From the NCBI GenBank assembly GCA_030431615.1, contig JAUIID010000032.1:1-34373 (forward strand): DNA of 34,373 nt, read 5' to 3'. Position numbers and translations under genes: made by a program. The stretch comes from Alphaproteobacteria bacterium (GTDB lineage: Bacteria > Pseudomonadota > Alphaproteobacteria > Geminicoccales > Geminicoccaceae). The notes beneath the pieces were generated by a model. That model worked only from the letters and a program-made list of their open reading frames with translations. It was not told the origin of the DNA and did no database searches. Shown piece after piece: positions 2,635 to 31,311 of this stretch. Position 1 is the first letter of the stretch; the number at the start of each line of letters is the position of its first letter.

Positions 2635-3321
2635 ATGGCGGTGACCTCGATCGTCACGGCTGCACCGGGCCGGGGCTTCACCTCGGTGGAGTCCCTCAAG
2701 GCCCGGGTCGACACCGGGACCACGCCCGACGCGATCCTCGCCCAGGACATCGAGGCATGGTCGCTGCGCTTCGAGGGCATGGCCGATCGGGTGCTGGCCA
2801 AGGAGCGGGTGATCGAGACCATCTACGGCCGCGGCCTTGCCATCCTGCTCATGCAGCGCCGGCCGATCGTGGAGATCCACTCGATCACCGTCGGGGAGAC
2901 CGTGCTCGAGGAGGCGCTCTACCGGCTGGACGAGCCCGGGTCAGGCATGATCCGCCTCGAGCTGTTCGAGCGCTACGACACCTGGCTGAGCGGCGACGAC
3001 ACCCCGGGGCTGGCGCACAACCCCGCGGACACCCGCTATGTCGTCGACTACACCGGCGGCTACGTGCTGCCGGGCTGGGACGGGGCCTACGGTGCCCGGA
3101 CGCTGCCGATCGACATTGAGCTCGCGGTGATCGGCGCGCTCAAGGTCGGCTATGGCGCTCAGGGCGAGGCCCTGGCCGCGGGGCTGACGGGCGAACGGCT
3201 CGGCGATTATTCGTGGTCGGGTGGGGGCTCATCCTCGAACAGCGGCCGGTCGGGCGTCGCCGTCGACGTTCCCCCGGCCTTCGCCGAGCTTGCCGGGCGG
3301 TATCGCAACCTCCTGCTGTAG
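2635..3321 (+). CDS. Head-tail connector (gp6-like adaptor)
   Basis: 228 residues. The helical N-terminal half (SLKARVDTGTTPDAILAQDI; RFEGMADRVL) followed by VVDYTGGYVLPGW and a helical region around IELAVIGALKVGYG is the layout of HK97 gp6/Ad1-type head-tail connectors, which form a ring beneath the portal. A Gly/Ser-rich stretch (about residues 195-207) precedes a short C-terminal helix. It starts 3 nt after the acidic protein and ends 4 nt before the convergent - strand gene, so the + operon is interrupted here by an antisense island. Confidence 0.82.
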   Translation: MAVTSIVTAAPGRGFTSVESLKARVDTGTTPDAILAQDIEAWSLRFEGMADRVLAKERVIETIYGRGLAILLMQRRPIVEIHSITVGETVLEEALYRLDEPGSGMIRLELFERYDTWLSGDDTPGLAHNPADTRYVVDYTGGYVLPGWDGAYGARTLPIDIELAVIGALKVGYGAQGEALAAGLTGERLGDYSWSGGGSSSNSGRSGVAVDVPPAFAELAGRYRNLLL

Positions 3322-3325
3322 CCGC

Positions 3326-3994
3326 CTACCCGGCCGGCCGCCACTTCCCGGCAGCATTCCAGATCACGACCTCCGCGTCCGCGGGCGGCTCCATCTCGTA
3401 GTAGGAGAACTCGGGCTGCTGCGCGAACCACCGGTACTGCGCCCGAGTGAAGCGCATCTCCAGAAGCAGCCCCTGCATCTCCTGCTGCGTCTCCTGAATG
3501 TTCCGATTGGCCGCGAAGGCCGGGGCGACGAGCTCGATGGTGCGGAAGCCCGGCCCGAACGTCCGGGCGCTGCCGTTGTCGAGCCAGACCTGTTGGCGCA
3601 GGATTGGCCCGAAGGCGTCACGGAGCACCGGGAGTGCGACCGCCTGCCGGAGGCTGATCGCCTGGCGCAGCGCCTCCCGCCGGGCTCGCGTGGCCTCGTC
3701 GAGCGCCAGCTCTGCACCGTCATCGACGACTTGCGAGGCCGCGCGGAAGGCCGCGAGCGCGAGGGCGACCAGGTCCATGCCGGACGTGTAGTCCCCGGCC
3801 TCCAGCGACTCCATTACCCCGAGATGGGCCTCGAGGCGATCGGCATAGTCGGCCTCGACATCAAGGCTTGCGGCGGCCGTCGGCTCCGGGGCGGACTCGC
3901 GCTTGCCCCCGCCCGGGCTCGTCAGCTGCAGGATCGCCATGATCACGCCCGGGGCGACGAAGATCCAGAACAGGATCTGCCAGACAATCCGCAT
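3326..3994 (-). CDS. Membrane-anchored protein of unknown function (moron)
   Basis: 222 residues from the ATG at 3994, preceded by GGGAGGAAG. Residues 2-24 (IVWQILFWIFVAPGVIMAIL) are one strong membrane segment, followed by a Gly/Pro linker and a soluble, mostly helical domain with long Arg/Glu-rich helices (about residues 95-190) and a C-terminal YYEMEPPADAEVVIW segment. No family is recognised. It lies antisense in the middle of the head-tail joining genes and is absent from the standard siphophage plan, so it is probably a lysogenic-conversion or superinfection-exclusion gene. That role is inference. Its start overlaps the upstream - strand gene by about 50 nt, suggesting translational coupling. 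Confidence 0.78.
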   Translation of the reverse strand: MRIVWQILFWIFVAPGVIMAILQLTSPGGGKRESAPEPTAAASLDVEADYADRLEAHLGVMESLEAGDYTSGMDLVALALAAFRAASQVVDDGAELALDEATRARREALRQAISLRQAVALPVLRDAFGPILRQQVWLDNGSARTFGPGFRTIELVAPAFAANRNIQETQQEMQGLLLEMRFTRAQYRWFAQQPEFSYYEMEPPADAEVVIWNAAGKWRPAG

Positions 3995-4209
3995 CCCTCT
4001 TCCTCCCTTGGCCCGCGCAACTCGGACGCTCCGTAGGCCTGGCCGTCCTGCCCGAGATAGGCATAGAGGACCGGCTCGCCGAACAGCTTCACGAGGATGA
4101 CGCGAGCGACCACGGTCCGTTCGCCACTCGCGACGACCACCACCGGGTCGCCCGGCATGTGCAGGGGCTCGAGATAGGCGGGGTCGAATGCAGGCGGGGG
4201 CGGGGCCAT
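3943..4209 (-). CDS. Small SH3-like protein paired with the membrane protein
   Basis: 88 residues if started at the ATG at 4209; an ATG at 4275 is also in frame but the extra residues look non-coding. The core GDPVVVVASGERTVVARVIL followed by YAYLGQDGQAYGASELRG has the beta-strand pattern of a small barrel. The last 20 residues overlap the start of the membrane-protein gene and are low-complexity. No good Shine-Dalgarno is seen. Function is unknown; it may act with the downstream membrane protein. Confidence 0.55.
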   Translation of the reverse strand: MAPPPPAFDPAYLEPLHMPGDPVVVVASGERTVVARVILVKLFGEPVLYAYLGQDGQAYGASELRGPREEEGCGLSGRSCSGSSSPRA

Positions 4210-4276
4210 GCCGCACGGTGCTTCGCCGGCGGGCCCGCGTCTACCAAACAGATCGTGCGACTCCCCGGCCCGCAAT

Positions 4277-4306
4277 TCGGACGCCGGCGGCTGGGGCGGC
4301 GCGCTA
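4277..4306 (+). promoter_or_regulatory. Late promoter-like motif copy 1
   Basis: TCGGACG at 4277-4283 and GCTA at 4303-4306, separated by 19 nt, with the ATG of the head closure gene 10 nt after GCTA. It is one of five copies with nearly fixed spacing. The gene that follows has no Shine-Dalgarno. Confidence 0.6.
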
Positions 4307-4316
4307 CTCGCTGGCC

Positions 4317-4637
4317 ATGTCGATAGCCCATCTTTTGCCGAACACCGCGGCCGTCTACCGGCCGGCCACCACGCTCAGCGAGGGCGCCGTCTTGTCCGCC
4401 GAAGCCCTGGTGGCGTCTGGCGTGAAGTGCCGGATCAGCAGCCCGCGCTCACGAGGCCTGCAGGTCTACGCGGGAGGCGAGGTGCCTACGGTGACGGCCG
4501 TCGCCTATTTCGAGCCCACTGCCGACGTCATGACCGGCGATAGGATCGAGGTGCTGGGGCGATCCTACAGAGTGCTCGCGTCGGAGCCGCAACCAGACGG
4601 GGTCTACCTCATGGCGAGCCTGAACCCGAACGCATAA
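4317..4637 (+). CDS. Head closure / head-tail stopper protein
   Basis: 106 residues. The ATG at 4317 is chosen because it begins the conserved-looking MSIAHLLPNTAAVYRPAT; longer in-frame versions run into the motif region. The C-terminal beta-barrel pattern VTAVAYFEPTADVMTGDRI followed by VLGRSYRVL is typical of siphophage head completion (stopper) proteins that sit below the connector and close the head. No Shine-Dalgarno precedes the ATG; the upstream bipartite motif suggests a leaderless transcript. A hairpin begins at the last base of the stop codon. Confidence 0.8.
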   Translation: MSIAHLLPNTAAVYRPATTLSEGAVLSAEALVASGVKCRISSPRSRGLQVYAGGEVPTVTAVAYFEPTADVMTGDRIEVLGRSYRVLASEPQPDGVYLMASLNPNA

Positions 4638-4662
4638 CGGCGGCGAGTTGCCCCGCCGCCGT
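4637..4662 (+). terminator. Hairpin, probable (bidirectional) terminator
   Basis: Perfect 9-bp arms ACGGCGGCG and CGCCGCCGT around an 8-nt loop, starting at the last base of the head closure stop. The 3' flank CTTCGCCT is only weakly T-rich. It also lies at the far end of the - strand repeat cassette, so it could end transcripts arriving from both sides. Confidence 0.5.
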
Positions 4663-4663
4663 C

Positions 4664-4961
4664 TTCGCCTGTCGTGCCCAACCGGACCATGCCAGCCCAT
4701 GCCGCACCCAGCCCTGGCCTTCCCCGCCAAGCCTGCCTTGCCTAACCACGCCTAGCCAGACCTCACCCGGCCCAACCAGGCCTGCCGCTCCTGACCAAAC
4801 CGGGCCAGTCCACACCGTGCCTCGTCGGCCAAGCCTCACCTGACCGCGCCAGTCCCAGACTCGCCTCGTCTGCCGGACCTTGCCTTACCGCACCCAGCCA
4901 TGCGCCGCCCCGCCTGCCTCACCCCGCCTGGCCAAGCTTCGCCATGCCTCGCCTGCCATGC
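4664..4961 (-). repeat. Degenerate 5-nt GCCNN (GGCNN on - strand) repeat array 1
   Basis: About 300 bp with no credible gene. On the + strand, CC doublets recur mainly every 5 nt (units such as GCCTG, GCCAA, GCCAT, GCCTC); on the - strand the unit reads as GGCNN. Units are degenerate and not copies of one longer consensus. The array abuts the stop codon of the 165-residue gene, so on the - strand it is that gene's 3' region. Arg/Gly/Trp/Ala-rich open frames across it are translation artefacts of the repeat. Confidence 0.82.
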
Positions 4962-5459
4962 CTACGCCGCGACCTTCGCTTCCATCGACGACAGGTCGGC
5001 CCGAAGGTTCTCCAGCCCGTTCAGGTCGGCGCCAACCGCGGCGAGGGGAACCGCATAGCGCCGCATGAGCCATGCCAGCGACGCGGCAGCCTGCCGCCCG
5101 AGCTCGGCAATGTGCTCGGGGTCGTTGGGGTCGGTCATGTGGTAGCCGCCACCACCAGAGCGCTTGCCGATCGGCGATAGCAGGAATGGCGCCGAGCGCT
5201 TGGCCAAGGTGAACGCCTGCGGCTCGCCCGTCCGGACCTCGAACTGCACCGTCAGCCCGCGGGCAAAGTCGCGGGCGAGATCGACATTCCGCTGGTGCCA
5301 CGCCTTGTCCCGATCCCACTCGAACCACTCATAGGCCGGGTGCTCCGGCCCGGTCTTCTCGACGTGAGCGAAGAACTGGCTCGGGTCGAACCAGCCGTTA
5401 TTCGACCGCGCGAAGTCCTCGATGATCTTCTGCCGAAGCGCTCGTGTGAATGCCGCCAT
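4962..5459 (-). CDS. Unknown protein of the repeat cassette (165 aa)
   Basis: 165 residues, with AGGAG upstream of the ATG at 5459. The sequence is normal and globular: an N-terminal helix (TRALRQKIIEDFARSNNGWF), an aromatic-rich segment YEWFEWDRDKAWH near residue 45, a basic Gly-rich loop GKRSGGGGYHMTDPNDPEH near residue 100, and C-terminal helices. No membrane segment, signal peptide or known catalytic motif is seen. It is flanked on both sides by GCCNN arrays and lies downstream of the 251-residue gene in the same direction. I do not recognise the family. The cassette context suggests DNA recombination or a phage-host interaction role, which is speculative. Confidence 0.82.
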   Translation of the reverse strand: MAAFTRALRQKIIEDFARSNNGWFDPSQFFAHVEKTGPEHPAYEWFEWDRDKAWHQRNVDLARDFARGLTVQFEVRTGEPQAFTLAKRSAPFLLSPIGKRSGGGGYHMTDPNDPEHIAELGRQAAASLAWLMRRYAVPLAAVGADLNGLENLRADLSSMEAKVAA

Positions 5460-5480
5460 TCGTCGACTCCTGTGGTTGAT

Positions 5481-5743
5481 GTTGCCTGCCTTGCCGCCCA
5501 GTCCATGCCAATCCCGGCCACGGCACGCCGCGGCTTGCCTGCCTTGCCTCGCCTGGCTTCACCCAGCCAGTCCAAGCCACGCCTGCCTCGCCTTTCCTTG
5601 CCGCGCCAAAGCTCGCGTCGCCTGCCTATCCGCGCCTCGCCATCCCTGGCCGTGCCCCGCCACGACAAGCCTAGCCCCGCCCCGCCTGCCGTGCCATGCC
5701 TCGCCGTGCCACGCCCATCCGCGCCATACCGAACCTGCCGCGG
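5481..5743 (-). repeat. Degenerate 5-nt GCCNN repeat array 2
   Basis: About 260 bp with the same 5-nt periodicity as array 1 (units such as GCCTT, GCCTC, GCCAC, GCCGT). It directly abuts the stop codon of the 251-residue gene and ends about 20 nt before the Shine-Dalgarno of the 165-residue gene. The - strand order is therefore gene, array, gene, array. The two arrays are not copies of each other: the period is shared and the filler bases differ. Confidence 0.82.
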
Positions 5744-6499
5744 CTACTTCCGCCTTTTGACCTCATCGGCGAAGTAATCCATCAGATCGGCCGTATCCTG
5801 ATCGGCGAGCTCGGGCTCATCGAACGCCTGCTGCTGCGCGACGCGCCCGTGGTTCTCGACCAGATCGTCCCACTCGTCGTCCTGCTGATCCGCCGGAATC
5901 GCGCGGAAGCTGCCGAAGGCGCCTTTTCCTTTTTCTTGCCGGAAGTCGCCAACCCCGACGAGCACGCCAGCATTGCAGGCGAGGGTCACGACGGCCGACA
6001 TCGGCAGCTGCGGGAGGATGTGCTGGATCTCGACCTCGGCGCCCCACTTGGGCAGGAACGCACGGGTCCGAACATCGGGCGTTCGATTGATGTCGGCCGA
6101 TCTCACGACGTCCATCCGGAGCTTCGGCGTCCCGTAGAGCGGCACGAGATCGCCCGGCATGAAGAGCAGCCGCTGCGCCGACGTCTTGGTGATCCCGGCG
6201 GTCTCGAGCGCGGCCGTGCACATGGCGGCCTTGACCGCGACGACGCGGAGCCCGAGCACCGTCGGGCTGTCGTCGTCGGCGATCTGCTCCATGGAGTCCT
6301 GGAACTCCTGGAGCGGCGCATGCTTGATATTGACCTTGTCGGCCGCGGTCTTTTTGCGCCCGCCGACCAGGAGCTGCTGCTTGGCCTTGGCGCTCATGCG
6401 GTTCTGGAACATCGGCGTCTCACCGATCAGCCGCAGGCGAATGACGCCCCGGGTGAGCGGCGGAACGAAGATTGTGGTTTCAGCTTTCTTGACGGCCAT
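5744..6499 (-). CDS. Unknown phage protein with GVGDFR motif (251 aa)
   Basis: 251 residues from the ATG at 6499, preceded by AAGGA. Readable landmarks are VIRLRLIGETPMFQNRMS (residues 18-35) followed by a Lys-rich stretch; a helical centre including AAMCTAALETAGI; LVPLYGTPKLRMDVVR; AFLPKWGAEVEIQ; and GVLVGVGDFRQEKGKGAFG near residue 190. An acidic tail ends in YFADEVKRRK. From memory, similar unannotated phage proteins share the order GETP, aromatic-W-A-E, and G-V-G-D/E-F/W-R-x-E-x-G, but I cannot name the family or a function. It is the promoter-proximal gene of the repeat cassette. Confidence 0.83.
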   Translation of the reverse strand: MAVKKAETTIFVPPLTRGVIRLRLIGETPMFQNRMSAKAKQQLLVGGRKKTAADKVNIKHAPLQEFQDSMEQIADDDSPTVLGLRVVAVKAAMCTAALETAGITKTSAQRLLFMPGDLVPLYGTPKLRMDVVRSADINRTPDVRTRAFLPKWGAEVEIQHILPQLPMSAVVTLACNAGVLVGVGDFRQEKGKGAFGSFRAIPADQQDDEWDDLVENHGRVAQQQAFDEPELADQDTADLMDYFADEVKRRK

Positions 6500-6604
6500 C
6501 GTTTGCGTCCTTGATTGGGACGCTGGCTTGAGGCAAGGCATTGCCTGTGCCTGACCGGCCAGCACCGGTTGCGGTAGAGCGAGGTTGCCGTTTGCGGCGG
6601 CGCC

Positions 6605-6680
6605 TCGCTCATCCATATATGCACAGTATGTGTTACAGAGAAATACATTTTTCTGGCATGCCCTAATATTTTTCTAGGGT
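6605..6680 (-). promoter_or_regulatory. AT-rich control region of the repeat cassette
   Basis: A sharply AT-rich island in GC-rich DNA. It holds two direct copies of ATTTTTCT (6647-6654 and 6668-6675) exactly 21 bp apart, a near-perfect palindrome CAGAGAAATACATTTTTCTG (6636-6655), and a CCCTA/TAGGG inverted repeat (6661-6679). A weak - strand promoter may end at the CATATAT near 6616, giving a leader of about 100 nt before the ATG at 6499. The remaining bases from 6500 to 6604 show no gene. Confidence 0.5.
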
Positions 6681-6715
6681 AGCGCCGCACGCTCTGTACG
6701 CGACTGGCGCCGATC

Positions 6716-6744
6716 TCGGACGCGCCCCGCGAGGCCGCCCGCTA
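6716..6744 (+). promoter_or_regulatory. Late promoter-like motif copy 2
   Basis: TCGGACG at 6716-6722 and GCTA at 6741-6744 with an 18-nt spacer; the ATG of the neck protein is 10 nt after GCTA. Same arrangement as copies 1 and 3. Confidence 0.62.
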
Positions 6745-6754
6745 TCCCGCCGGC

Positions 6755-7183
6755 ATGACAGTCCGGATCACCGACGAAGCATTCAAGCGCCGCCTCATGG
6801 GCGCGGTCGAGCGTGGCCTCGGCCAGCAGGGCGCGTACACCCAGGGAGCGATCCAGCAGAAGATCGGCCGCTCGCAGCCGGTCGGGCGCTCGAAGAGCGG
6901 GCGCACCTGGGGCAAGAACCCCTCGCTGCCGGGCGAGCCGCCGAAGAAGGTCACGGGCGAGCTGCAGCGCTCGATCGCCTGGGCGACGGAAAGCGACACG
7001 AGCTCGGTGGCGCTGCAGGTCGGGATGAACCTCCCCTACGGCCGCTACCTCGAGGAGGGCACGTCGAAGGACGGCAAGCCACTTATGGCGCCACGCCCGT
7101 ACCTCAGGGTCACGCTCATCGAGCGGCTGAAACGGATCCAGGCCGGCGTCGCCGCAGCCGTCCGGGCGGAGTTCAAGCTCTGA
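6755..7183 (+). CDS. Neck / tail completion protein, HK97 gp10-like
   Basis: 142 residues. GEPPKKVTGELQRSIAW, then VGMNLPYGRYLEEGT and PRPYLRVTLIERL, are the hallmark order of HK97-gp10-like proteins at the head-tail neck, which help join tails to heads. The ATG lacks a Shine-Dalgarno and follows the late motif by a short fixed distance. The stop overlaps the next start (TGATG), so the tail terminator is translationally coupled. Confidence 0.88.
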   Translation: MTVRITDEAFKRRLMGAVERGLGQQGAYTQGAIQQKIGRSQPVGRSKSGRTWGKNPSLPGEPPKKVTGELQRSIAWATESDTSSVALQVGMNLPYGRYLEEGTSKDGKPLMAPRPYLRVTLIERLKRIQAGVAAAVRAEFKL

Positions 7184-29722: not shown

Positions 29723-31311
29723 TGGCGTTTGGGATGAGTCCGTTTCCGTTTCGGTTTGGGTCGCGGGGTGGAGGTGGCGACCCGACCGCGCTGACGGCCG
29801 CCCTTCTGACGACGCTCGGCTTTGCCACCACCAGGACCGGCACGGCCCTCTCCCAGAAGAAGGGGACGCAGCCGAGTTACGAGCTTGTAGCGGCGAACGC
29901 GCCCACCTTCAGGCGCTCGCTGATCGATGGCGTGGCGTACCTGTCGAGCTACGCCTACAACTCTGCGGTGCCATTGGTCAGCTATTCCAACGACCTGACA
30001 AATGCGGCGTGGACCAAGACGAATGTAACTCCAGTACTCGTTGCCGGTGGCGGTATCGCAGGGGAGGATCGCACCGATCTCACCTTCGATGAAGATAACG
30101 GAACAGTCACCCGCACGCTCACCCGTTCGCCCGCCAACCGTGCCAGCCTGTTTCGCATCGAGGCGCCATCTACCAATGTCGGGGATGTTTTGGTTAGTGA
30201 TGGGACGCCTGACACGACGATTTTAGACGATGATTTTAGCAGCTATGCCGACACAACGGCACTTCTGGTAGCCTGGCCGTCCAATCAAGGGGCGACTGTC
30301 GCATTGGAAACCGCGCAGATCAGTGTGACCCGCACTTCGTCGACCAATGACGTAGCCGTATATTCATTTGCCTCTATGCTTGGCAAATTATACAAAGTGA
30401 CGTGTGATGCAATAACTAACAATTGCCGGCTTCGTGTATCGTCGGCGGCTGGAGGTGGGTTCGAGGCATTGCTAATTTCAAATATGGCCGAGGGCTCTGC
30501 TGGTGGAACGCTAGTCGCATACTTTATAGGTACAGGGAGCACGGTTTACGTCGGAGTTGGTGGAGCGCCAGGGGCGCCCACAAAAACAACATACGATAAT
30601 GTGGTTATCTCCGAAGTCGCTGAAACCACCGTCACCCCCGGATCATTCTTGGAGATCGAAACCGACGCCTACACGGCCGCCAACCCGCAGCTCGCCATTC
30701 GTGGGGATACCTCAGGTGACACGGCGAAGGTCTACGACATGCAGCACTTTGAGCCGCCTGCCTCTACTCCTGTTCCTCTGCATGTCCCGCCACAGGGTGC
30801 TACGCCTGCGAGCTTGGGTGCGACGCTTTACCAAAAGGCTCTGTCAGTGCCTCCAGCCGAAATCGATGTAAGTGTGCTGGCATTCGCACACCCATCTGCG
30901 ACAGTGCGAAATGAAACACTATTTGAGATATATCTTGATGGATCGAATAGGGCTTACGCATATGATGGGAGTACAGGTCTAGAAACTGTTGCTCATCGCG
31001 TAACGGCAGGCTCTACGTTTATCACTATGGCAGAGCAGCCGGTGAACGGTAGCCTGTTTCAAATGGACATTCAAATATCTGGATCAGTATGCCGAGCGCG
31101 AGTGAACGGGGCTGCTTGGGAAACGGGAACCGTCCGCGCGTTGGCTGCATACGTGAAGTTGACCCTTGGCTCCTTGCAAGCAGCAATCGACCATTGGAAT
31201 GAACCTATCATCGCCCTCCGCGACAACAACGGCCAGTTGCTCGGAACAGCAGGTGCCGGCTTCAACCTCAAAGCCATCGACCGATACATCGCGAATGGAT
31301 ACTCGGCATGA
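29722..31311 (+). CDS. Tail/fibre protein with beta-sandwich modules, AT-richer core
   Basis: 529 residues from the ATG at 29722 (a GTG lies at 29719). Residues 1-60 are a Gly/Thr-rich start. The SNDLTNAAWTKTNVTPV block near residue 90 is typical of phage proteins with N-terminal jelly-roll carbohydrate-binding modules. More sandwich-like modules follow, then HWNEPIIALRDNNGQLLGTA at the end. Codons from about 30,150 to 31,200 are visibly AT-richer than the flanks (for example TTTTAG-like runs and TTA/ATA codons), suggesting a segment acquired by recombination. Probably a receptor-binding or decoration protein. Overlaps the next ATG by 4 nt. Confidence 0.78.
   Translation: MAFGMSPFPFRFGSRGGGGDPTALTAALLTTLGFATTRTGTALSQKKGTQPSYELVAANAPTFRRSLIDGVAYLSSYAYNSAVPLVSYSNDLTNAAWTKTNVTPVLVAGGGIAGEDRTDLTFDEDNGTVTRTLTRSPANRASLFRIEAPSTNVGDVLVSDGTPDTTILDDDFSSYADTTALLVAWPSNQGATVALETAQISVTRTSSTNDVAVYSFASMLGKLYKVTCDAITNNCRLRVSSAAGGGFEALLISNMAEGSAGGTLVAYFIGTGSTVYVGVGGAPGAPTKTTYDNVVISEVAETTVTPGSFLEIETDAYTAANPQLAIRGDTSGDTAKVYDMQHFEPPASTPVPLHVPPQGATPASLGATLYQKALSVPPAEIDVSVLAFAHPSATVRNETLFEIYLDGSNRAYAYDGSTGLETVAHRVTAGSTFITMAEQPVNGSLFQMDIQISGSVCRARVNGAAWETGTVRALAAYVKLTLGSLQAAIDHWNEPIIALRDNNGQLLGTAGAGFNLKAIDRYIANGYSA

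Follow-up and report, generated by a model that had tools for sequence, protein, structure and literature searches.

A probable VIPR locus with packed guide arrays, antisense in the head-tail genes of an alphaproteobacterial temperate phage

Viral Interference Programmable Repeat (VIPR) systems were first described in a preprint of April 2026, which tested a few of them in E. coli (bioRxiv 2026.04.26.720920, PMC13142463; not peer reviewed). According to this preprint they consist of a Vipr protein and an accessory gene together with vrRNAs built from GGY/NN repeats; the NN pairs of these repeats read DNA while skipping one base, and the systems studied there target satellites and prophages (PMC13142463). 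Type II encodes separate vrRNAs of about 100 nt, each with 9–16 repeats and an invariant structured 3' tail. Other types, of seven in all, differ, and the preprint's account of them includes "staggered arrays with overlapping vrRNAs" (PMC13142463). Where does a locus fit in that carries two tightly packed arrays and, beside its vipr-like gene, a second small gene? We analysed a stretch of 34,373 nt from a member of the Geminicoccaceae (contig JAUIID010000032.1, assembly GCA_030431615.1), here called the window. It very probably holds a VIPR locus, antisense in the head-tail block of a temperate phage, with a 251-residue protein as its Vipr protein and two stutter arrays as vrRNA arrays of 11 guide modules. 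We base this assignment on the predicted RAMP fold of the protein, on its relation to a Vipr protein of known structure and on the presence of an array beside the gene in most homologous loci.

The cassette lies antisense, with a head-tail connector gene on one side and a tail-completion gene on the other (Table 1). Genes for capsid, head, tail, tape-measure, tail-fibre, endolysin and integrase functions are present in the window, so that carriage by a phage or prophage, one of the VIPR traits, is found here as well. The initial annotation of this DNA had described two minus-strand genes, of 251 and 165 residues, each followed at its stop codon by an array, and we find them exactly so: both arrays begin directly at the TAG stop of the preceding gene, in gaps of about 290 nt each (5460-5743 and 4664-4961), and the last ~20 nt of the first gap are upstream region of the 165-residue gene, not array. 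A search for a sigma-70 promoter or terminator of the cassette brought up nothing convincing. Among 31 genomes searched in the window's bacterial family, vipr occurs in this one only. GC content falls to 54% at positions 30001-31000 of the window, the rest of the contig being mostly at 61–72%, and an integrase-like gene stands at the contig end (33656-34309); the contig looks as if it were a cut prophage.

Table 1. Features of the cassette (positions in the window).
Feature	Position	Strand	Basis
vipr gene, 251-residue protein with predicted RAMP fold (P0001)	5744..6499	-	36pp profile match, AlphaFold2 model, invariant glycine-rich loop
Putative guide (vrRNA) array A2, from vipr stop	5482..5743	-	period 5 (z 8.0), unit parse
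AGGAG, likely ribosome-binding site of accessory gene, between array A2 and ATG	5467..5471	-	sequence reading
Putative accessory (vap-like) gene, 165-residue protein (P0002), weakly winged-helix-like	4962..5459	-	family beside vipr, model, weak fold matches
Putative guide (vrRNA) array A1, from vap stop	4667..4961	-	period 5 (z 7.2), unit parse
Array A2 modules	5691-5735, 5627-5686, 5588-5622, 5544-5583, 5500-5539	-	separated by 4-nt GGCA units
Array A1 modules	4919-4953, 4875-4914, 4831-4870, 4787-4826, 4738-4782, 4674-4733 (last one with ambiguous parse)	-	mostly GGCA separators, once GGCC

Autocorrelation of the two arrays gives a clear peak at 5 nt. The lag-5 self-match is 0.52 in 5460-5743, against a dinucleotide-shuffle mean of 0.32 (z = 8.0), and 0.50 in 4664-4961, against 0.33 (z = 7.2); in neither array did any of 500 shuffles reach the observed value. 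GCC recurs at exact 5-nt spacing 17 times in the former (1.5 expected) and eight times in the latter (1.3 expected), and nothing elsewhere in the 34-kb window comes near such a period. Read on the gene (minus) strand, the unit is GGYNN, in which GGY is constant and both N vary almost without restriction. In the window's clade (1478 units), G occupies position 1 in 92% and position 2 in 86%, position 3 is C or T in 87%, and the entropies at positions 4 and 5 are 1.95 and 1.98 bits. The further VIPR trait of tandem GGY/NN units in the intergenic DNA next to vipr is thus present, whereas conserved direct repeats with unique spacers, as in a CRISPR-type array, are not; the arrays consist of 5-nt GGYNN units. 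Rfam returned no match over 4000-7000, and no known hammerhead was recognised there. The initial annotation had rightly seen the 5-nt period and had held that the arrays share this period and not their sequence, which agrees with a constant GGY and an NN close to maximum entropy; it had missed the GGYNN unit on the gene strand, the 4-nt resets described below and the occurrence of such arrays throughout the family.

A profile built from 68 family members of the 251-residue protein has one match in the PDB, 36pp ("SUSP1 Vipr protein", E = 1.1e-4), and the same profile detects the type II-like Viprs of LESphi2 (1e-15), VSe11 (1e-9), MakoManhole (6e-9) and Medea1 (1e-6). The initial annotation had looked to a structure prediction for this protein. 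In our AlphaFold2 model (pLDDT 89.8), Csm3/Cas7-type CRISPR backbone proteins are the first to match (best Z 10.4, rmsd 3.9, 138 aligned). The family is most conserved in an invariant glycine-rich loop, residues 182-196, which connects a helix to the following strand; RAMP proteins usually have their G-loop at this place. The protein is accordingly predicted to be a small RAMP protein of the Csm3/Cas7 fold; together with 36pp and the type II-like relatives, these features make up the VIPR trait of a RAMP-fold protein, with RRM core and G-loop, related to known Viprs. It falls into PHROG 4652, of unknown function. Neither Pfam nor PADLOC gave a match for the 251- or the 165-residue protein, and Pfam gave none for any member of set A1. 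The predicted fold and the glycine-rich loop are shared with the Csm3/Cas7 RAMP proteins of class 1 CRISPR effectors, from which the locus differs in its 5-nt period, in its phage-borne Vipr and in having neither CRISPR direct repeats nor cas neighbours in the window.

Nearly every locus, including those of Gordonia and Mycobacterium phages, has a member of the 165-residue protein family next to vipr (90 ORFs), so that the VIPR trait of an adjacent vap gene is also found. The 165-residue protein has no detectable relation to accessory proteins from type II-like loci. The model of the protein is of high confidence (pLDDT 91.8); its structural matches are weak, the better ones being winged-helix-like (Z 5.4 or less). 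We infer that it is the accessory protein of the system, and our guess is that it probably binds DNA, in line with the preprint's description of several vap proteins as DNA-binding (PMC13142463).

Are gene and array linked beyond this genome? In IMG/VR we kept 80 homologous loci, with protein identities of 42–77%, and a lag-5 detector found an array adjoining vipr in 75 of them; run at lags 4 and 7 as a control, it picked up only a few stray segments. In four of the five exceptions (L012, L048, L049 and L080), the contig stops at the gene or no more than ~600 nt from it. The sole untruncated one, L031 (IMGVR_UViG_3300042370_000001), has vipr and the accessory gene and no detectable array near them. 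A contrast of GGY density near to and far from the gene was discarded, as the far set is contaminated by long arrays. Hence homologues regularly have the adjacent arrays whose consistent absence would have spoken against a cassette, and the suggestion of the initial annotation that gene and array form one unit is borne out across the family. Further vipr homologues come from Gordonia, Mycobacterium and Pseudomonas phages and from genome contigs of genera that include Bradyrhizobium, Methylobacterium, Microvirga and Aureimonas. In Gordonia phage Ecliptus (L005, ~2980-4281), vipr and the accessory gene lie within the structural genes, between the tail assembly chaperone and the tape measure. In Mycobacterium phage Donkeykong (L006, NC_051648), the annotated CDS gp48 (hypothetical protein, 2489-2875) lies almost wholly over a GGYNN array (2508-2866) and is probably noncoding; its vipr, gp49, is probably annotated with a start too far upstream. 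A guide array of ~2.4 kb, several times longer than those of the window, occupies 5450-7892 of L071.

Within the window arrays the 5-nt period is reset by a 4-nt unit every ~7–12 units, which divides array A2 into five modules and array A1 into six, of 7–12 NN each. In the window's clade the divider is GGCA, in a second clade GGCG with GTC after it, and the NN adjacent to a divider are A-biased. Distances between dividers peak at 9 units and are more regular than expected at random (mean 10.2 and sd 4.8 over 408 intervals; average sd of 8.4 under random placement). These period-breaking units may mark the boundaries between successive guides. Of the relatives, L014 and L015 have some modules in common and others different, and length differences that start and end at dividers were seen in L053 (48 nt) and L059 (83 nt, to within 1 nt); many other length differences between relatives do not start or end there. 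In near-identical modules, substitutions were not significantly commoner in NN than in GG. It is conceivable, although we consider it rather doubtful, that the clade keeps a packed, CRISPR-like guide bank in which only the 4-nt GGCA/GGCG separates the guides and whole modules are gained, lost or swapped between close relatives.

How does the locus relate to the type II systems of Escherichia phage SUSP1 and a Pseudomonas fulva prophage? Like these, it is phage-borne and combines a Vipr RAMP protein with an adjacent accessory gene and tandem GGY/NN units. Unlike them, it has two packed arrays of 7–12-NN modules with 4-nt separators, and an accessory protein without detectable relation to the type II-like ones. 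We saw in the window arrays no conserved 3' tail of the kind that type II vrRNAs have; the layout of separate vrRNAs is found in the type II-like locus L105. The "staggered arrays with overlapping vrRNAs" named in the preprint are possibly the divider layout of the window. The locus is a further member of a kind of system already described, with an accessory gene and an array layout unlike those of the experimentally studied type II. The initial annotation had suspected an undescribed recombination, RNA-structure or anti-defence system; its suspicion of an RNA-based or anti-phage role was worthwhile, while the system itself is already described as VIPR and no recombination gene adjoins it.

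By analogy with the published type II work, Vipr subunits would coat the guide RNA, presumably one per 5-nt unit, and would grip the fixed GGY of each, leaving the two variable N to pair with double-stranded DNA with every third base skipped. The bound complex would then silence genes of competing phages or prophages, with the 165-residue neighbour as a probably DNA-binding accessory.

Searches with 1-nt-skip patterns yielded no convincing natural target of the window guides. Four exact 9-NN patterns gave 0, 1, 0 and 0 matches in IMG/VR, and the single match, in a tail gene on a contig of 34% GC, was rejected as chance. Of two patterns taken from a mycobacteriophage array, one matched twice and the other not at all; the match in L102 was taken as chance, given a mismatch in the flanking NN, and the second match is in L103. 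Searches in the window's family, in Bradyrhizobium (one related guide) and in related records were negative or at background. Under the 1-nt-skip rule, related guides showed no excess of matches in ~0.8 Mb of related loci, and the window itself was likewise not above background. As a 1-nt-skip pattern, guide 5691-5735 had 35 near-matches at 3 mismatches, against one for the reversed control; we claim none of these as a target, many of them resembling, on a reading of the translations, the common VTHD motif of ABC transporters. Compared with phage coding dinucleotides, NN usage agrees best, among six phases, with sense-oriented codon positions 1+2 (r 0.73 in one of the two clades and 0.90 in the other). 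A mixture fitted at module level assigns ~45% to this phase and ~50% to a uniform background, and is ~70 log units better than the uniform background alone. Such a fit is what a 1-nt skip over wobble bases would lead one to expect, yet it is suggestive only, because most of the support at module level disappears on within-array shuffling and the NN positions, by their moderate GC alone, would favour the same phase.

Might a VIPR-derived complex do another job here, regulating the phage's own genes or acting on RNA instead of silencing competitors? The failed search for a competitor target of the window guides, the antisense position inside structural genes and the mostly sense-oriented NN usage are compatible with this. 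We nevertheless consider it unlikely: no module matches the window or related loci above background, the studied VIPRs target satellites and prophages according to the preprint (PMC13142463), and missing targets are to be expected because the host group is poorly sampled. Far less credible is an array that serves as loading DNA for an annealing recombination protein with a 5-nt footprint per subunit, like some single-strand annealing proteins. A filament protein would suit the 5-nt period and the G-rich strand, on general knowledge, but the adjacent protein is a predicted RAMP and not an annealing protein, no recombination gene was recognised among the head-tail genes next to the cassette, and the hypervariable NN would be left unexplained. 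Equally improbable is a low-complexity, slippage-derived or coding repeat without guide function: long ORFs do cross the arrays, and phages with coding repeats exist, but slippage yields near-identical copies, whereas here GGY is fixed and NN near-random in ~75 loci at 42–77% protein identity, and a 5-nt unit keeps no reading frame. For the same reason, GGY being held while NN is near maximum entropy, slippage or mere composition, as raised in the initial annotation, does not account for the arrays. The repeats of Tweety gp54, our first candidate for a known counterpart, are also GC-rich tandem repeats of a temperate phage that vary between relatives; the identification was rejected, since theirs is a 12-bp repeat inside a coding gene (PMC2884959) and ours a 5-nt noncoding array.

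As a VIPR system, the locus and its ~90 relatives display an architecture richer than that of the VIPR type studied most closely: a locus carries numerous guides, 4-nt dividers interrupt its arrays, and its accessory protein is a different one. The GC-rich stutter DNA of several phage genomes, which in at least one case has been annotated as a protein gene, is likewise explained by VIPR arrays. If the window guides act against competitors, as the type II work would suggest, such guide banks could show which phages are competitors in nature, and in what way guides evolve when no CRISPR adaptation is at work. A turnover of whole guide modules, if true, would imply a process of guide exchange or acquisition outside CRISPR.
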